Part shown: piece after piece, positions 9,517-64,000 of the stretch
Numbering within the stretch: position 1 is the stretch's first letter
Layout: each line of letters opens with the position of its first letter
Source of the DNA: Hericium rajendrae
Lineage: Eukaryota; Basidiomycota; Agaricomycetes; Russulales; Hericiaceae
NCBI GenBank assembly: GCA_033439255.1
Contig: CM065879.1
Span: forward strand, 3,044,501-3,108,500
DNA length: 64,000 nucleotides
Direction of reading: 5' to 3'
Notes under the pieces: generated by a model
What the model saw: the letters and a program-made list of their open reading frames with translations, nothing else
Database searches by the model: none
What the model was told of the DNA's origin: nothing
Position numbers and translations under genes: made by a program

Positions 9517-12500
9517 ATGCCAGACACCATCGCGACCGCCGACGGGCCCTCCCACCAGGCCCAGCATCGCTTCACAGTCCACGCGTCCGCGGACGCCATA
9601 TCGTTCTCGATCGGGGACGTATACAAGGAGGTCGCGTGCATGGCGCGCGACGTCGCAGACGGGGTCAGGCAGGTCGCGGCCCTAACGAAGCTGCGCAAGA
9701 GCGTGTGGCTGCGGGATCTGCAGAGGTCTGAGGTTGCTTTTGTCAGGTGCTGCTGGGTGCTGTGCTGATTTTTGGTGGATCTTTAGTATTTCTGAGGCGG
9801 CGCCGCCGAAGATACGCATCGGATTCTGTGGAGGTAAGCCTAGTATCTGGTTGGCGGTTTCGTCCTCGGGCAGGCAGAGCATGAAGATAGATGCCCTTCT
9901 CGATGAGCACGGTCATGGCGAGCGTGTACGAGAGCGGTACTGACGCCCTGTCTGTCTATCAGCTACGGGGACTGGGAAATCATCAGTGATAAATTCTCTT
10001 CTGGGAGGTATGTGTTTACGGCTGATCTGATGAGCGGCATCTCTGACATGATCGCCGCGTTTCAGCCAATATCGTGGCTACCAACGCGATGCGCGGTACG
10101 TGAAATTAGTCTGAACGCCGTTCAACATATCCGCTGACGAGACGACAGCATGCACGGCCGTTGTCATCGAGGTCTCGCACCACCAGGAGACGAACGTGAC
10201 GGCGGACATCACCTTCGTCAGCAAGGTGAAGTGGCAGGAACAAATTGCGCTCTTCCTGGAGGATATGAAGGACATCGACGTCGAGGAGTTCAAGAAGCGG
10301 GCGCACTTTGGTGGGGACTCGGGGGAGGCTCCGGCTGTCGCTTGGTCCAAGGTTTGCATGCGTTCGGCGATGTCCTGCGTGTAAGATGCTGACCCGAGCC
10401 GATGCGACACAGTTCATGTTCGTTTACCCGGACATACCTCTCGAGCAGTTCGTCCAGATGTCAGTGGAGGACATTATCGGGCGCAACGCCGGCAAGTCAA
10501 TCTGCTTTGTTCGCCACGCTGAAAGCTTACACAGCATTCATGCGAATTAGAGATCCAGGATATGCTTGGCTCGATGAAGGCCATCGTCGCAGAGGACGCC
10601 GAACACTTTGAAGCCGAAATCGGGAGGTACATCGATTCCAACAGTCACTGCCTGCCGCCGCCGCCGCCGTCACCGAACTCTGGCGAAGAATCCCCCGATT
10701 TTCCGGATCTGGAAGATATAATGTAGGCAAGAAAAAATCTTGACCGAGCACGAAAAGATATTCTTTCTTCCCTAGGAAAAAAGACTATCTATTTCTAAAA
10801 TATTTTCTCCACTATATCTTGGGCAAAAAGCTGAGTGAAATGTATCGCCAAAGACAATATAGCCATGTGCGACCATCTGTTCATTTTCGCACCGCCGCCT
10901 GCAAATCACCGAACTCTGCTCCAGGGCCCTCTGGCGAAGAATCCCCCGATCCTTTCGCGGATCTAGACTTGTTGATGTCCATGATGTCTAGGCAAGATGG
11001 CAACATGTCTCCGCTGACCGAGCACGATCCCGACGACTCGCGCATGGACATTGACGATCCGGTCGAGCACGAGAGCGGCCAGCCTGCCGCCGAGGCTACT
11101 ACGGAAAGCCAAAAGGCGGTTCTGTGGCCTCTCATTGAACACGTCGCCATCCGCTGCAATGCACCTGTCCTCTCCACGGGTGCCATATTCGTCGACCTGC
11201 CGGGCATGTCTGACGCCAACGCTGCGCGAAACCGTATCGCCAAAGACAATATAGCCATGTGCGACCATCTGTTCATTTTCGCACCGATCACTCGAGCGCT
11301 AGACGATAGTGCTGCAAATCGTGCATACCTCTGTCCTCAGAAACATGTGCTTGTTCACTCGGGTTTGATATAGGGCTTATTGGTGATTCATTGAAGAGGC
11401 AGCTCATAAGTATGTTGTTATTTCTTGAGATTCACAAATTTTCACTAAACATCTGCCTTTGCAGTGGGTAAGCTGATGGCTTATTTATTGACATGCAGGA
11501 TGCAGGCTAATATTTTACAACTTTAATGCAAAGATGGCATGTAAGCTATCTCTGCATAGATACACATACTTTCAGAGTGTAGCTGATGTTTTATTTGTCA
11601 GATATGATTCCAGGAAGATGACATTCATCAGTAAGCTTTAATAGGCTTGAATATTAGCAACTCTTATTTATAAGGTGATCTTACTAGTGACAAAGACTGA
11701 TGATCTTGTCCCTTCTGAAGTGATCAAGAACCTTGGTTTGGACAATGATCCAAAAGTTGTGGAGCTAAAGAAGCAGATTTCAGAGTCTTCCACTTGCATT
11801 GACACAGAGAGCCACAGACAAAAAAAAGCAAAAGATAGTGCACAGGGTAGGCCATTTTAATTGCATTGATAATGTTGTTGATAATTGATAATTTTATCTA
11901 GAGATAGAGAAAAAGCTTACAATAGCCCAAGATGCACTGATAAAAAAGCTTGAGCAACCTACAATCAAACAAGAGTTTAAGACTATTAGTTCTTCATCTG
12001 ATTTAACTTCAAGAGCAGAATTGTCTATTGAACAAGGCAAAAAAAGAGCAAGTGACTCTGATCATCTTTCAGCCAAGCGACTACATCTTGATGAAAGTGT
12101 TAAGCTCAATACTTCTATTGTGAGTAACACTATATAAGATTTCAATTTGTGTTATAAATAATTTTATAATTTGTTTTTAGGAACAAACAATATATATTGA
12201 GAAGATCAAGGCTATGATTGAAGCAGGCAGTAAACAGCTTCAAGGTCATCTGAATATCATTCATGATACTACTCAAAATATCTCATTGGAAAGAAGAGAC
12301 AAGATTCAAGCTCAGCAAGATCTGAAAGCATATTGTTCTTTGAAGAGATCACAGGTAATATTTTGAAATTTGAATGATACTGAATTCTTATACAATGCAT
12401 ACTAGATTTCTAGGCAAATACTTCAGTATGATTTTAGGCAAAATCTTGAAGAATCTCAAGGTGTGAAAGTATGATTGTTCTTTCTTTTTTATAGTTTGAC

Positions 12501-14229
12501 TTAACATTATACATACAGATGAGGACCAGATAGAGAAGAGCATTTTGTTCTCTACATCTTCAGAACTTCCAGTCTTCTGTTGCTCATCTCGAGAGTATAA
12601 TAAACTGAAAGGTTTAGTCATTTATAGTCTTTTTAATAAACAGAAGTTTAATCATAAAACTAAAGGATTAATGAAGACCAATGTAGATGGAGATGCCATG
12701 GTATTCAGAGATCTGGCAGATACTGGGATACCAGCTTTGCAATTATAGTGCAAGACTCTTTCACTTGTTCCTCAACATAACACTGCTATCAGTCTTTTCA
12801 AGCAAATAAAAGAGCTAGTGGATGGTGTACAAGAATATAGTCAAAATGCAAAACAAGATATTGATATAGGTCTTGTTAAGCTTAAACAACAATGGGAGAC
12901 AACTGTGAATCAGTATTATGTCAAGGAAAAAGGTTAGCTTTCTTAAATATATTTGAACTTTCTCTTATGTACATGATATAGGCTTAAGCAATGATGAGAC
13001 TCAATGTGATATTCACTTTTGTCTATTAGAAGTAAGTTATTTTCTTTTAAGATAAGTTGTAGCTGATGCAGTCTTCAAATCTAGATCTTCAATCAAATTT
13101 TCCATGAAGAGACAAAAAACTCAGAACACATCTTAGACAAAGCCTAGAGGAAATTTGTCAACATGGTGTCAAACTGGTTTGACCTACTTGTATTAAATCA
13201 TTATTGGATATTAAAGTTCTCACTTGTGCTGTAGGCATATTCTGAAGCTCACAACAATGCTGAAAGTGGCTTGATGATGTTCATCATCAGACCTTTCATG
13301 CTTGTAAGGATAATTTATACTATTATTTGCCACTCTCAGCATTTATATTATTTTAGATCTTCGTCGAAATGGCTGTTATAAAGTTGATCTCAATGAAGTC
13401 TTTATGGAGCCATTTTATGAAGCCATTACACCAACCTGGACACAAGTCTTTGATTTTAAAGCCAACATTCTAAAATCCTTCACAAAGTCTATCAGGACCC
13501 TTATTAGCTCTATTTTGACACAAGTCAAATTGTCATGCCCTGGTCATTTGCAAGTAAAGGTCAATGTACAAATTCAGCACTGCAAAGACAAGTTGCTTGA
13601 ACAGCTAAGTCTACTAGTTGATCAGGCACATAGCAAACTTGATAAAGAACAAAAAAAAACTGTCTCGTCATGTGGTTTTGCATGTTCAAGACCAACTCCA
13701 TGAAGGCTATACTGAAGTACTTCAACTTGTTGTGACTCAAAGACCTATTACTGGTTTTCGGAAAGTATGTTCATTGCAACTTTCACTTCATTTGATGGAA
13801 AACATATTTTGTTAACATATTACACATGCAACAGGAAGCATTCTACAAGTTTTTGGATAAACATCAGGATATATTCCTTGGTCTTGTCAACATGTTGATG
13901 GATGGCCTGGACAAGGCAATTGACAGCATCCAGCCAAGCCTTCAAGATGCTGCAGAACTAGCCGAGGAGGTATGATGATCATGCAACATCTATGACGGAG
14001 ACATTGACATTCTCTGCAGGTTGAACTCAGCATGTCAACACTCTGGGACACTGTGCCCGAAGATGCAGATGTTGCTGAACTGACTGCACAAAAACACCTC
14101 CGGCAAACAATCAGCGAAGTGCAGAAACAGCTATCACTCTGGGCAGAGTCAGCTGAAGCAGTCGGTAAGAAAGCAGTCGGTGAGATGTCGACCTTGGGAC
14201 CCGATGTTAGTTCAAGCAGTGGAGAATAA
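9517..14229 (+). CDS. SLIP-GC/dynamin-like large GTPase, copy 1 (mosaic, probably damaged)
   Basis: This is a multi-exon member of the dynamin-superfamily GTPases annotated as nuclear GTPase SLIP-GC in mushrooms. The P-loop ATGTGKSSVINSLLG (about 9963-10006) and the tiny exon ANIVATNAMR are present. So are G3 DLPGMSD (about 11195), G4 TKTDD (about 11693), coiled-coil helices, and a C-terminal exon starting VELSMSTLWDTVPEDADV. The order matches copy 2. Three oddities stand out. First, a diverged tandem duplication spans about 10670-11286, and its first unit runs into a stop. Second, from about 11380 to 13900 the DNA, exons included, is markedly AT-rich although the protein still aligns with copy 2. 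Third, a TAG replaces the conserved Trp codon after PALQ (about 12747), and a nine-A run near 13650 shifts the frame. Function of fungal members is not established. Confidence 0.7.
10670..11286 (+). repeat. Diverged internal tandem duplication within GTPase copy 1
   Basis: A 53-bp stretch at 10842-10894 is identical to 11234-11286 (offset 392 bp). Upstream pieces also pair. CACCGAACTCTG plus GGCGAAGAATCCCCCGAT occurs at 10671 and 10905, the second with a small insert. TAGGCAAGA and TGACCGAGCACGA occur near 10725-10753 and 10990-11027. The first unit is shorter, AT-enriched in its middle, and hits a stop after EDIM. The second unit encodes the region leading into G3. Confidence 0.8.
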
Positions 14230-56192: not shown

Positions 56193-59100
56193 TATGTCTT
56201 AGTTCTCGTTCGTCGCGTGTGTCGTGCTTGTCGTGGCGGGGTAGTGCGGGGTAGAAGGTGGGGGGGCTGTCGAAAATCATCCTGGCACCAGGGTCTTATA
56301 TGCAGGGGGTGAGGTAACGCGGGGATGCAGGGCACCGAACGTGTCGGGGAGCACGTTATCCCCGCTGCAAATTCACATACACAAGCAGGAATTGGACAGA
56401 TAACTTAGAATGCATGGCGCATGACCATGGGGAGCCTCGCGTACAAAGTCCAGGGAGAGCGTCGAGACGTGCGGACCGTGGAGCCGAAACATCAGGCGAG
56501 CGTTGAGTGGACGGTGCGAATATTGTTCCGGGATGGAAGACAACTTTTCGCAGTTGAGTGAGAAAAAAGATGGAAGAACTTCCTCCGGAGCTCGACGATA
56601 CTGGGGGCCATTTCCCGAAAGACAAGGAGCACGGCCATAACTTGAAGATCCCGTCGAATTCAGGTGAAGTTGCAAAGGGTACCCTGATCATCGGCGCAGA
56701 TCTAGTGGCCTATGAAAGCTAATGTTGTTCATTACGAGAAAATGTCGGTGCTAATCGACTCAGGATAGCGGACAGAGCGTCTAAAACTCAGAAACCACCT
56801 TCGTGGTGGCGAGTAAGGAATCGAAGCGCTGCCCCCGCGCATCAGCGCGCCAACAACATGGCATCAGCAGACCCTTCGGCGGACAACCGCTTTCCGCTCT
56901 TCGCAGCTCTTCGGGCTCCACAGATGAAACCGCATTTTTTTCCTGTTCATAAGTACTAGTAACTGCTCGGGAAGATCTGAAGCAGTCAAAGAAATCTAGG
57001 CCTGACCTATGAAACGTAGACAAACTGCAAGCTGCAACAGGCTGCAACGCGACTGCCAAATGCGAACGAGGGACTAGACCAGTGATACCCCACAGCAACA
57101 TAACGGCAACCCCTCACACGGACAGCAGAGCCCTTAGACCAACAACGATACATGCCTTTTCCGACCAGATCACATCGCCGCTGTTTGCATCTTCTTCACC
57201 CCGAAGACCCGCGGACGGATTAATCGATCCTCTGAACTGTATCACCTCCAGATCTATGACGAACATGCGGAGACGCGCCAGGTCGGGGGGCTTCGAGGAG
57301 ACGGCATCAACGGTGGCAGTCTCGGCTGCTCGGATGCGCGCTGTGCCTGCGGCGAAACGTGCTACGTGTCCAAGAGGGTTTTAGGCGTGCGTCTCCGAAC
57401 GAGAATAGAGTATGAAGGGGCGATCGGTGGAGCATGCCCTGGGAGGCTTCGATAGGGGAATCACATGAAGGTCACTTCATCTGACGGGACTGCTCTCGCG
57501 CACGTTGCGCACGCGGTTCGCCACTGTCGATCTGGGACAAGGTACGTCCAGGTTGCGCCTTGCTAAGTTTGTGAGAAGGCGCAGCGGTCTAGTGAAGGTT
57601 GAGGGTTTTGGATCCTGTGCGAACATCGACGCGCACAAGGAGTAACGATGAACTGCGATAGCGTCGAATCTGACCATCTTCGATAGTGTAGAGGGTCTCC
57701 CGACCTGCACGCGCGATGATCGTGCAGAATAGCGTCCGGAGCCTGCAAGTTTGCTTGTTAGGATGAGCAGATGAGTGTGCAGCGACGTCACGGTGGGAGA
57801 TAACGGACCATGTAGAAGGGCTTGTGGCCAACGGAACAACGGATGGCTGAGGCCTGCTGAGCAGGAGCTTACAGCAAGTCGGAACTACGAAGAGGCGGCC
57901 GGACATCTCACCAATCATTCACTGCCTTTGGAGTGATGTGGGGCAGCGTGTCCTCAGCATACGTCGGTCGAAGTATCTTGTTGCTGAGAAACATGGCCCG
58001 TGCATGTTGGCGAGGAGACGGACCCTTCTCACAGATGGAAACGTCTGTGGAGTCGCTGTCGTTCAGGTTTTGCAAAAAGACCTCTTGATTCCAAAACGCG
58101 CAGATGGAGACGGGTGTCACTGGAGCTCGAGAACGAGGAAGCTCGTGGATATTGGCCCCATCGGAAGTTCGGAAGGCAACAAGCTACTCTTCGCGCAAGT
58201 GGATCCCATGCGAAAAAACCAAACCATATCTTTCTGCGCGTATCGCAGCATTCTGGCACTGGATGGGTGCTTGAGAATATGATAACTCCATGGGCATGCG
58301 ATTCGTGACCCACTGGCGCGATCGCGACTATTCGGGGCCGAATGACTTCCTCGTCTGAGCGCTATGTTGCCAGCATTCTGCTGACTAGGTGAGCGCTGAG
58401 TGCGCGAACGCAGATATCCATTTACCCGAGTGCAACAAAGTGCGACAGATCTGTTGTTACATATGGACAAGCTGTCAATAATTACGCACCTTTAAAGGTT
58501 TCTTTTCATTACTACATTTGTCTGACTTGATAATGACGCATAGGCCCCGCTGCCACGCGCTCCAGGAGTCCATTGCGGAATCTGAGCTTCTAAATTTGCC
58601 ACATTCGGTCCTATTCGACCAGCTGCAGGCGTGCAGCCGAGTCCTGCACTGTGAAATAGCGATGGTAGGTTAGCAGGTCAGATTTCGCGACGACGCACCA
58701 TCGATTGCCTCTGTCATCATGAACGGTTTGCGTCAATTTGCAGAAAGCACACCAGCCGCAGGTCGCATCGGATACAATGTTTCGCGAGCAATACACCTCG
58801 ACTTCTACATGCAGCAGTGCTAGGAAGACGCCAAGAGCTGACATGCGGCAACTATGGCCTGGACAAAATCTGTGAACGGGCCATCTGTGTTCCCCATACG
58901 ATGTGAACCCTGGAAACAGTTCACAGTAGCAAATGCGGGCTCATCATTAGCAGTGCGCCATGCGCGCACCGCACACCATTCGACGACTCGGACATGGCAT
59001 GGCCTCCTTAGCCATGCAAATTCAGGGTGTTGTGCGCCACTAGTGTTGAAAAAGCACGATGACTCTCTTGACCGTTCTTTTGAAACAAGTCGGAATTTGA

Positions 59101-59725
59101 CAGGGACGACTTTATGCAGAATCGCACTGATGATCGCGCTGGTGAAGGACTCAGGAGCCGGAAGACAGCACAACGTCCCTGGTGCCTCGATCGTGCCAAC
59201 TGCGTGAAGTCGAAGTGCAGGCGAGCGCGCAGCCTTCAGATCGGCAGCGGCCCGGCGGCCCGCCGCCTTATCTCCGCTAACCAGAACCAACCAGGACACC
59301 TTATCTCCGCAACTGAAATACTGACCGAAGATGCGATGGCCTCGGGAAAGCGTCAACACGGGTCTAATTTCACACTGTTGAAGTCGCGCTGGTCATAAAA
59401 ATGCAACGCATCCGCAGTTGAACAGAAGTCCCCTACGGATGCTAACTACCATTGTCAACAGTTCCCGAAAAACATGAACGAAAATCCGGATCCATGATGC
59501 TAAAGTCACGATAAACGTCTCCAAGCCCGGTCGACCATTCCATGCTAATGATGAATACAATATTCCAACTCCATGATGCTGATGTTTGCGCGATGTGAAA
59601 CGCCGTGAGATGATGATGTGATGGTAAGATGTCGCGTTCTGTGGAAAAAGGCAGCATCAGTCACTGCTTGTTCTGCATGTGCAGAGACTCGGGACATACG
59701 AAGAGTAGGCGGGTGCGTCGTTCGC
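56193..59725. other. Gene-poor region, one long unidentified open frame
   Basis: No recognised gene. On the minus strand a 179-codon open frame (58820-59359, starting MLTLSRGHRIFGQYFSCGDK) is followed by a 77-codon frame (58611-58844) with a cysteine-rich piece TCGWCAFCKLTQTVHDDRG. They might belong to an orphan gene. Elsewhere only short frames occur. The first few hundred bases are presumably the promoter of transporter B. Confidence 0.3.
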
Positions 59726-59846
59726 TTAAGCGACTATGCACATGGAGTGGCCGCCGCTGCCGCCGTCTTCGGACTCCACGGGGAATGCTCGTCTCGGGCT
59801 TCTCGACGGTGGATGAGGTGAAGAGGTGTTTGATGAAGGAGTCCAT
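59726..59846 (-). CDS. Candidate mating pheromone precursor with CaaX box
   Basis: A tiny intronless reading starts MDSFIKHLFTSSTVEKPETS, and the MDSF opening is typical of agaricomycete pheromone precursors. One frame over, it ends ESEDGGSGGHSMCIVA and a stop. CIVA is a farnesylation CaaX box behind a glycine-rich, acidic lead, as in B mating-type lipopeptide pheromones of mushrooms, which often end CVVA or similar. The two parts meet at a CCCC run in ATTCCCCGTGG. One C fewer gives a continuous peptide of about 39 residues. Without that, the CaaX frame has no ATG. The precursor would be farnesylated, carboxymethylated and cut near the acidic residues, and sensed by a Ste3-type receptor. No receptor gene is recognisable in the window. 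Confidence 0.6.
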
Positions 59847-60790
59847 TGCGAGATGAGGATGGTCAAGAGACGAGAAGAGCAGCTGCGTCTGGGGGTTTCG
59901 CTGGAGAGGAGAACCTGGAGACATCAAGGCCAGAAAATGCTCTTTTTATGCATTTCAGAGGTCCCTACCGCGTCCTGAATTCCCGACCTTGTAACATATG
60001 GCGGCGAAACCACTTGAACAAAGCACAAGGTGAGACTGACCTTCTTCCAACTGAATGGATGACTTCGTAGGAAGACGATATGCACGTGCCTGAGTAAAAA
60101 CAATAACGAGTACGGTGAGAATGCCGTACGCGGTTTCGTTTGAGCGCCGCCAAGACGCGCAAAACAATAAGGACGCGATCACTACATGTTAATCCCATCG
60201 ACATCACGGGCGGTTCAGGATCATGAATCAGATACCGCTTGTCCAGAAATTCAGGTGCTATGGTTGTGCTTGAGGTAAGAATAAGAACTTTATCTTGAGA
60301 ATGAGCAGAACACCGAATGTTAGAAAGGCTCCACTCTGGTTCCATGCTTGAGACATCATAAGCGCAAAACAGTAAAGACACTTGTCTCGAATTCCCTGAA
60401 CAAGATCATGCTGGACCCATTAGATGATTAACGCCAAGCGCGGTGAGATGTGGCAAAAGACCACTTGCATGACATAGCGATTCACTGCTGGGGTGGGGTA
60501 GGGTGTTTGCGCGAATGGATATTCAGGAGTAGAGACGTTGGCCGCCATCCGGTAAAGCAGGGTCGATGTGAAGCTGAAACTGTCATTTGGCAGAGTTCAG
60601 AATTTCGGACGTCGGAGAGCCAGCACTGCTGGCGCTAGCCTTTCGTGTTCACAACTCGGAACACTGAGGAGATTCTACCAGAGAAACAGACAGAAATGAT
60701 TACAAACCGCGAACAGATGAAATCCCAAGCTTTGTCCCAAGCCAACTCATTTTTCCGCGACACCTTCTATCAGCCACATCTTCAGCGTAC
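59847..60790. other. Spacer, nothing recognised
   Basis: Only short open frames on both strands, none with conserved content. It is downstream of the glycoside-hydrolase-like gene and upstream of the pheromone-like reading. Confidence 0.35.
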
Positions 60791-62826
60791 CTAGCACATG
60801 CATGCACTGGATTGCCCAACGGCACCCTGGAACACCCATGCCCCGCTCCCGATGCTCCCAAACTCGATTGACCCATTTTGGATGTCCGCGCCCGCGCTGA
60901 ACACCGCAGTCGCCTTTTCCTCTTCGTTCCCGCCCAGGACATCATCAAGCGAGATGCTGGCGTTCGCGTAGTTCAGGTTGACGGCGATGACGAGCGTGCT
61001 CGTGCCCGAAGCCAACGACCACACGCCGATGTCGACGCGAGAAGATGTGATGATGTGGTTGAATGTGGACGGCGCTGCTGGTGCGGAGGGATGGAGGAAG
61101 GGGACGATTTGGGGCAGGGCGAGTGCGAGAGTCGAGGATGCGGCTTTGATGTCGGGCGTGGTGGGGTCGTTCCAGGACACGACGCCTGGGAGAGTCAAAG
61201 ATAGATAAGTATGGAAGGTCTTGAGGCTATCATGTTGGAATCCTCACCGAGAGCACCTGCGTTGATCCCAACGATCGCTTCGACCAGCCACTCAGCACCG
61301 GTGGGAGCACGGCTCCAGTATCTGTCATGTACACAGTAAGCACCAGCCGTCTGAAGCGTTCGCGAAGATGAAAACGCACTCGCTGCCGCCGAACGCCTGC
61401 GGCACGGTCCAGACCCGCTTCGTCCGCTCCCACCCCAGCACCTCGAACCGCTCCTGGAACTGCGTCACCCGGTCCCTAATGTCCTCAAATTGCCCCTTGC
61501 AGTTGTCACACCCGCAGTCGCCGCGCTCGGGCGTGCACGGCGTGTGCCACGTCGTGCTGAACGTGACGTTGTTCCCGATCTCGTACGCGTCCTGCATGAG
61601 GATGTCTGCGCCCGCGGCGTAGTCTGCGAAGAAGTAGTCCTGGCAGTTCAGTACGAGCGAGGTCGGGCGGTATGGGTCGAGCGATTTGATCAGGTCGTAG
61701 GCGATTACGGTCGCGTTGAGCGGGTCGGAGGTCCCGTCGGGCTCGTCACCTGTATAGTAGAGAAGGAGATTAGTGCGCGAGAGGAGGGACTTGACTTGTT
61801 CTGTGACGGAGGTGTTGTTCATGTACGTGCTAGGAACACCATTGCATAAGAACCGATAGGTGGACTCTCGAGAATGATAAACATACTATCGCATATCATA
61901 CATCAGATAAAGCCCTAGCTCCTCCATTCTATCAACAACTTGGTTGAAGGCTGTCAGGTTGTCAAATGTGGGGACAGGGTGGATCTGACTAGCCCGTTAA
62001 TTCTGCTAAGTCAGCGTAACTGAAATCAACTCACAATGGTGAATCTATCCCAAAAAGAATTCTCAGTATTTGATAGAGCTGCAAAGATCGTACACACTCA
62101 CCCTTGTTCCTTCAGAACATTCAATACAGACAGGTTGGACGCCAGGTACCCGTCGAAGTTGTGTAATATCCGAGCGGAAATACAGGCGCGTAAGCTCCGT
62201 CTTTCTGTCCGACAGGTCTCGCAAGCAATGCGCCGGTGCGCATGTCAAATTTAGTAACAGAGCCGATGTCGGATGGAAGCGAGGGCAGATAGACCAACTC
62301 AGTGGTAGCATTGAAAGTCTGATTTCCCAAGGATGCCGAACAGCTGACAGTGTAAGGCTCGGTACGAGGAGTGAGGAACGACAATGAAAATGGAGGGACG
62401 TCGTGCCGTTAAGCCCGACGCTGCCATTTGCAAGTGGAGTGCCGTCAATGCTGGCAGAAACCTCGAGAACGGGTGTCGCGGAGTCAAGTACAGATGGGAT
62501 TGAGACGGGACTCGCGCCTTCGATGTGGCTGTACCGGACAAGTGCGTCCACAAGAATCTCCGCTGAGGAAGACTCGTCTTCTGGCAAGTAAGGCTTGAGA
62601 GCAGGCGTGCAGCGAAGCGCAAGAAGCGGCTCAGAGGAGGACGGCGGAAAGGTGAACTCTCCACCAGGCGGGACGACGGGTTGGTTCGCCATATAAACTT
62701 TACCGCACCTGCATTCGTCACGATCAGAACGAATGTCAAACACCCGAGAAATCCACATTACCATGTTTGGGCACCTGCCAATGGCAGCAAGAGTAGTGAG
62801 CTGACTATTGTGAGTTGCAGGTGCAT
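60791..62826 (-). CDS. Secreted glycoside-hydrolase-like protein
   Basis: A signal peptide (MHLQLTIVSSLLLLPLAGAQ) is followed by an N-terminal beta-rich region: CGKVYMANQPVVPPGGEFTF, a piece with ALVRYSHIEGASPVSIPSVL, then YTVSCSASLGNQTFNATTEL. Next comes a likely TIM-barrel part: GYLASNLSVLNVLKEQG-like, VDRMEELGLYLMYDMRYTYM, then NLLLYYTGDEPDGTSDPLNA and YDLIKSLDPYRPTSLVLN. Further along are ADILMQDAYEIGNNVTFSTT, CGCDNCKGQFEDIRDRVTQF and VWTVPQAFGGSEYWSRAPTG. The last exon has INAGALGVVSWNDPTTPDI and a small beta domain ending SSACMC. The GDEPD segment and the barrel layout suggest a glycoside hydrolase catalytic core; the substrate is unknown. About six introns are present and there are many N-glycosylation sites. 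Confidence 0.72.
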
Positions 62827-64000
62827 GGTTTCGTGGGGAAGGATGTTGATCAGCTTACCGTCTCTATCGAGTCGTCCCTCCCAATTATACCCTGCAGAAC
62901 AAAAGTACGCATGTGCTCGCGATGACCGTTGCGCATGACGATCCTCTATCACTGACGAACGTTGAACACAGCGAGCTATCCGAGAACAGTGGAATCATGC
63001 GGTCAGGAATCCTCGGAAGGCATCGAATACGGATAACCGGATATAGAAGGAAATCAGGTGGTAGACACGCTGTCGAGCAAGGAATAGACGAGATGGGTAG
63101 AGGAAAGATCTTATCTCAGCGATGAAAATTGAACAGCAGAGAGCGTTAAGGATGAGCGTAAAGTCTGTGTGAATACGCTTTGCATCCGCTCGAGTTCCTT
63201 GTCGAGCAGGTTTATCTGTTACAAGAATAGCAATCAACAGGCGCCCTTGTCCTTGAAAACAGAGATAACGAGTGCATCGATCCTGTTGACACGTGCAACA
63301 AGCCTGCAGCGGCGGCCGATATACTCAGACTGGGCTGCGTGCGTCACCCTGCCGGGTCAAGGTAGTAGCCCTGTACTCGTAGACTGAAGATATCCATGCT
63401 AAAGAAGCAAAAGCTGTAGTGCTCGTCAGTGAGGATTTGAATGGTTTAGTCAAAACGCACCAAAGACATGGTCGACGCGTGCAGTCACCACGTTCGCGGA
63501 CGGTCCGATGAGGATAAGTGTTCATCATCCAAGAGGCGCTCTTGTGCGTATTGTACACCCTGGGTGTATGGAACCACCTTACCTGATGACTCACTGGTAG
63601 ATAAGGGCGAGTCTTGTCTGGTCATATATTTTGTGCTGGTCAGGTCAGCATGCGCCAGCAACGATGGGTGCAATTGGCGACCGCTAGGATTTCACGAGGA
63701 GCATTATCGACAAGCTGTCATAACGTTCCCCGCTGTTGATCTCGTTAGCAAAGATAGTCATTCCATACCATCAAAAGCAAGATCTCAGACCAAGTACGCC
63801 CATGGTTTAAAGATAAAATAAGATCTTTGGTCTGCAGTTGAGGAGGAGGTCATGACGGTCAAGACAAAAAGAATCGTAAACGCGTCATGTCACGGTCACA
63901 TGCGGGCAGCTTGTTGCCGCGACCGTTCGCGACTTGCAGCTCGTCTTCTGTTGGCAACTCACAAACTCTCGTCACCGGGCCTCATCCTTGCTGCCAGTGC
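62827..64000. other. Window end, nothing recognised
   Basis: It contains the promoter side of the glycoside-hydrolase-like gene. Open frames up to 117 codons (63468-63821, plus) show no conserved features. Confidence 0.35.

Follow-up and report, generated by a model that had tools for sequence, protein, structure and literature searches.

A frame-split pheromone-like precursor gene away from the mating-type locus of Hericium rajendrae

The window analyzed here is a 64,000-nucleotide stretch of Hericium rajendrae DNA (C2:3044501-3108500, in a genome of 46.77 Mb and 19 contigs), and on its minus strand, at 59846-59726, it carries a pheromone-like gene in which a frame opened by an ATG is followed by a second frame, shifted by one base, that ends in a CaaX box. 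The ATG occupies 59846-59844 and the stop codon 59728-59726, and the distance from the ATG to the P codon of the tail is 64 nt, or 1 modulo 3. The head frame comprises 22 codons from the ATG (MDSFIKHLFTSSTVEKPETSIP; 59781-59846, minus strand) and is supported by its 12-nt start, its codon usage and a DNA alignment of the 5' part to a sister gene at C2:3144 kb. The tail frame (PVESEDGGSGGHSMCIVA-stop; 59726-59782, minus strand), supported by its identity to sister tails, a profile and a DNA alignment, contains an acidic processing region, a glycine-rich predicted mature peptide (GGSGGHSMC, with Met before the Cys) and the CaaX box CIVA. Between the two frames, a stretch at 59780-59803 of the same strand holds the net +1 nt break and includes a CCCC run. 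As assembled, the frame opened by the same ATG runs for 61 codons (59661-59846, minus strand), with a basic run, RRRRQRR, and without a CaaX end; the program-listed ORF of this frame begins at an earlier in-frame ATG (59924) and is 87 aa long. A TATA-like sequence, CATAAAAA, was located 104 nt upstream of the ATG (59943-59950, minus strand), where the other members of the family described below also have one. The preliminary description, which gave no strand, had read from this DNA an MDSF start, a glycine-rich, acidic lead and a CaaX end closing in GGSGGHSMCIVA-stop, had taken them for a pheromone-precursor-type gene and had placed its two ends in different frames; our analysis, which puts the acidic residues in the middle and the glycines in the tail, agrees that the gene is of the pheromone-precursor type and is split between frames.

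The surroundings had also been called gene-poor, which is fair when judged by long ORFs, as the interval from 54.6 to 61.3 kb has a single stop-to-stop frame of at least 180 aa (58823-59392, minus strand). The window has 49 long frames, and a Pfam search with 20 of these matched seven, to a sugar transporter, a GATA factor, a phosphotransferase-like protein, a TrAA12-like protein, ankyrin repeats, an ABA_GPCR domain and an NAD-binding domain; no STE3 receptor was among these matches. Two neighboring long frames at 61328-62854 (minus strand) resemble one gene whose start, MHLQLTIVSSLLLLPLAGAQTW at 62826, is signal-peptide-like, and these frames gave no Pfam match and no convincing PDB match. 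Elsewhere in the window, the G+C content dips to 34% at 12001-14000, compared with 45-62% in the other 2-kb bins.

The window copy is a member of a pheromone-like peptide family with at least seven members in this genome, the other six being sisters on C2 (four) and C8 (two). Four of the seven are intact, with whole frames: C2:3144063 (41 aa, ...PVEAESSGSGGESYCVVA), C2:4195521 (38 aa, ...PTDLEDGGSGGYSYCVVA), C8:941438 (43 aa, ...PADQEASGSGGYSYCIVA) and C8:855449 (855449-855586; 47 aa, ...PSDQETCGSGGHCYCIIT), the last of which ends in CIIT instead of CaaA and has extra Cys residues near its end (TCGSGGHCYC). The remaining three carry one single-base-type lesion each: the window copy is shifted by +1, the sister at C2:3845446 (head MDSFVNAIASYFATVPTEVEPTTTP, tail PVDAEDGGSGGESYCIVA) is broken by -1, and the sister at C2:3133030 has lost the stop codon after CIIA, along with an apparent extra T in the alignment. 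Both precursor-type ends are thus found in the window copy but in different frames, and they are joined in one frame in the four intact members. Over six aligned tails, the invariant positions are P, E, G-S-G-G, S, C and A; the tail at C8:855 kb keeps G-S-G-G, with C replacing S and T replacing A. Five of the six sisters have exactly the same 12-nt start as the window copy, ATGGACTCCTTC, and the 3845 kb sister has TCT for TCC.

The family also has a common promoter layout, in that a TATA-like box lies at -104 to -122 in all seven members. The pattern, which admits CATAAAAA, was picked after these upstream sequences had been viewed; it occurs at -125 to -96 for 4617 of 120000 random positions (3.8%), for 13 of 266 ATGGAY sites (4.9%) and, in the tested interval, for two of the five B-locus pheromone genes, although one of these five starts had been set a few nucleotides off. 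Two of the sisters are carried by a tandem segmental duplication that spans 6.7 kb or more with 87-94% identity (C2:3130001-3136691 and 3141107-3147706), each duplicate holding one pheromone-like gene (3133 and 3144 kb, respectively) together with exons of a FunK1-type kinase (PF17667). The coding parts of these two genes differ by six synonymous and two conservative I/V changes, a pattern consistent with purifying selection.

That automated finding overlooks this gene, as had been anticipated, holds for the Pfam pheromone model PF08015: the window copy was not among the matches in a genome search, and its head, its tail and an X-joined form gave no Pfam match, the 22-bit cut-off of PF08015 not being reached. 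Among the sisters, C8:941 passes with 22.7 bits as a protein (19.7 in six frames), the intact 4195 and 3144 kb sisters stay under the cut-off with 15.5 and 14.0 bits, and the 3845 kb copy, joined by X at its break, had no Pfam match. In contrast, a position matrix built from the six sister tails, with the window's excluded, gave the window tail 45.3 bits, against -0.5 bits for the next best stop-ending 18-mer in the six frames of the window and 14.8 bits for the best in 60 first-order resamplings of it. This profile owes little to the window copy but is not entirely independent of it, since just two queries, the window tail and a majority-type tail, recovered the 3845 kb sister; the 4195, 3133 and 3144 kb sisters were recovered with the window tail and also with the C8:941 protein, C8:941 came via PF08015, and C8:855 via C8:941. 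The C8:941 protein search (E <= 10) found four sisters, and the window and 3845 kb copies were not among them.

Further support came from direct comparison with the sisters. Identity between the window tail and four of the sister tails is 78, 67, 67 and 67%, and the DNA aligns to the C2:3144 kb sister at both gene ends, with 84% identity over 50 columns covering the 5' untranslated end and start and 77% over 60 columns at the tail end. With a codon-usage model trained on 2257 codons, the head stretch scored 11.0 in the head frame versus -3.8 and -14.8 in the other two, and the tail stretch scored 2.1 in the tail frame versus -6.6 and -12.8; random stretches reached the head value in 0.6% of cases and the tail value in 8.4%, so that the tail taken alone is unremarkable by this measure. 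A search for other genomic DNA copies of the gene with a 501 bp query (E <= 0.001) matched only the gene itself.

Where the break lies was approached through the intact sister C2:3144063. The preliminary description had blamed the split on the CCCC run (59783-59780) and expected a shorter run; neither idea gains particular support, as the intact sister carries the identical CCCC in frame, as GTC CCC GTC, and the run as the proven cause of the break was set aside. In a pairwise alignment the frame-changing gap falls near 59803, and in a MAFFT alignment it falls just before the CCCC. Since neither alignment places a gap inside the run, the extra base lies within 59780-59803.

We consider this off-locus pheromone-like gene most likely to be a redundant spare that was broken recently. 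An assembly or base-calling error in a gene that is intact in the living fungus is possible at this site, though we hold it to be rather unlikely. Apparent one-base indels do occur in essential genes of the same assembly, and the sequence and codon usage on either side of the break are otherwise unspoilt. Among 35,355 aligned coding nt of control genes, two indels of 1 nt were apparent (FKS, 1 in 5,169; HSP70, 0 in 10,524; CCT, 1 in 12,789; ALDH, 0 in 6,873), namely a missing base by a T run in the glucan synthase gene (C7 ~1451947) and an extra base in a CCT chaperonin gene (C7 ~1921327), both of which are probably assembly errors. The count was read by eye from alignment tables, covering all 9 FKS, 24 HSP70 and 17 ALDH rows and 30 of the 31 CCT rows (one nested row was excluded), with sequence-level checks of both suspected indels and of another CCT stretch; one control search had 12 of its 88 candidates scored, and an HSP70 gap at C7:1050305-1050443 was left unclassified. 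The resulting rate is a lower bound, because lesions beside unscored pieces are missed, overlapping rows are counted twice and the reading was by eye.

At this rate, ~0.7% of genes of pheromone-like size would be hit (again a lower bound), which argues against an assembly error: 0.05 broken members would be expected among the seven, and the probability of three or more is 2e-5, or 8e-4 at the upper 95% rate. Moreover, lesions are present in three of the seven family members while the five pheromone genes of the B mating-type locus are all open, numbers too small to prove relaxed constraint and involving an in-locus set that was found by a model favoring whole genes. Likewise, no frame-split MD...CaaA gene turned up when 60 kb surrounding the B locus was scanned with splits permitted. 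Given the control indel rate, the five open in-locus genes and the lack of a split gene in that scan, real decay of redundant off-locus copies is the better reading.

The preliminary description had further proposed that the gene is a B mating-type pheromone gene, that its surroundings might belong to, or descend from, a pheromone/receptor region, and that STE3-like genes should be sought beyond the window ends. In our genome search, in which the best 10 candidates were scored, the STE3 exon matches listed numbered 19, amounting to about five genes or more, and all fell at C2:4205.7-4253.4 kb. Three STE3 genes lie at C2:4205.7-4216.0 kb among five pheromone genes, and two more lie at C2:4248840-4253418, ~30 kb away from where the B locus has its pheromone genes; a scan of the DNA around this latter pair with a narrow MD...CaaA motif found no gene. 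PF08015 had six matches in the genome, five at C2:4207-4219 kb and the sixth being the off-locus sister on C8. The STE3 match nearest to the window copy is on the same contig at a distance of 1.1 Mb, and the copy is not physically linked to any of the receptor genes found. As both the STE3 receptors found and the five B-type pheromone genes are 1.1 Mb away, the window is not a pheromone/receptor region, and a mating-locus origin of the window copy was rejected on the STE3 map.

We regard it as very unlikely that the window copy belongs to the B mating-type pheromone genes or is what remains of a pheromone/receptor sublocus. The B mating-type precursors (PF08015) share its overall design and CaaX end, it lies on one contig with the B locus, and the sister at C2:4195.5 kb is only 10 kb from the first receptor. 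However, the B mating-type precursors are STE3-linked and mutually divergent, whereas the window family is off-locus, and no STE3 match among those listed comes within 1.1 Mb of the window copy. The tails differ as well: those of the five in-locus pheromones follow EH or DH and end in GFC, GYC or WYC (one of them also has a glycine-rich SGSG tail), but the window copy shares GSGG-x-x-x-C with the dispersed sisters.

Two further readings concern the break itself. The middle of pheromone-like genes might be a slippage hot spot at which copies flip frame before the mature peptide (+1 in the window copy, -1 in the 3845 kb copy), so that the set of secreted lipopeptides would vary between strains or be set by frameshifting in the cell, an idea we think highly improbable. 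Still harder to credit is that the break is read through in vivo, by ribosomal frameshifting or an unusually short intron, and the peptide is still made. In favor of read-through, the window and 3845 kb copies both switch frame in one region of the gene, ahead of the mature peptide, and are whole in other respects; against it, the two breaks are opposite in direction and the intact sister has the same CCCC in frame. An intron across the break was rejected, as the only frame-restoring GT-AG of at least 20 nt spans 34 nt and has a poor donor (GTCGAG), and the introns deduced from exon spacing in control genes are mostly ~49-62 nt. Finally, that the whole reading arose in random sequence can practically be dismissed, for although short frames are abundant and starts of the MDSF type are frequent (the two strands of the 46.8 Mb hold 125 ATGGAYTCNTTY sites, compared with 78 for the reversed pattern), the tail score, the DNA alignment to a sister at both gene ends and the TATA-like box at the family position all speak against it.

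Pheromone-like precursors of the same kind are described in the available parts of PMC8305134 and PMC4101180, and the window copy is a further, broken member of this already known, non-mating-type kind. PMC8305134 describes non-mating-type-specific precursors in Coprinopsis cinerea, Laccaria bicolor and Agaricus bisporus; as here, these Agaricomycetes precursors have an MDS/AF start, a charged pair and a CaaX end and lie away from the PR locus. Both sets have a glycine-rich mature peptide with a GGSG core, the consensus printed there being GGGSGNGAYC and GGGSGNNAYC, whereas the tails here are of the GGSGG-x-SYC type (GGSGGHSMC in the window copy) and the window copy, unlike the kind in that excerpt, is split between frames. 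The A. bisporus precursors are 44-54 aa long, compared with 38-47 aa for our intact members, and three of the four A. bisporus genes are on one chromosome (PMC8305134). In Pycnoporus cinnabarinus, four mutually similar precursors stand beside three distinct B-type ones, an arrangement we liken to ours by description; broken copies, present here, are not mentioned for that species in the part of PMC4101180 at hand. For Phanerochaete chrysosporium, the same source classes three receptors as B-orthologous and two as non-mating-type, which resembles the 3 + 2 layout found here. By established knowledge, the B-locus layout and the type of precursor seen here point to an agaricomycete. In the portions available, PMC5755439 reports that Pleurotus tuoliensis has two more pheromone-like peptides, encoded on other scaffolds, PMC5473757 states that annotation pipelines missed about half of its pheromone genes, for which a CAAX pattern script was needed, and PMC3140503 describes a pheromone gene whose stop codon after the CaaX box apparently turned into Trp, a parallel to the 3133 kb copy with its lost stop. 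A look-up of four peptide strings by their letters in a literature collection of 5.39 million papers gave no match. Within the accessible text of literature on frameshift and pseudogene pheromone genes we found no frameshifted pheromone gene, which is not proof of absence.

CaaX pheromones mature by farnesylation, trimming and carboxymethylation and signal through STE3-type receptors, as the intact members would too. Their maturation is outlined in the available part of PMC8305134. In the intact members, the Cys would be farnesylated, the last three residues lost and the end carboxymethylated, and trimming of the N-terminal side close to the acidic pair would release a glycine-rich lipopeptide of ~9-11 residues, for which the window equivalent would be about GGSGGHSMC. 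The two STE3 genes at C2:4248.8-4253.4 kb may be the receptors of the family peptides; we infer that they are the natural candidates because no pheromone gene was found beside them. The window copy as assembled would instead encode a basic protein of 61 residues that stays outside the CaaX pathway, and since this product has no CaaX end, the copy presumably makes no pheromone.

Here, a reading of the bare sequence caught a genuine gene that escapes the Pfam model, though the mating-locus story built on it fails. Four precursors that are intact and three that are broken, together with five pheromones of the B type and a pair of receptor genes for which no adjoining pheromone gene was found, make this genome a compact test set for the pheromone-like family.
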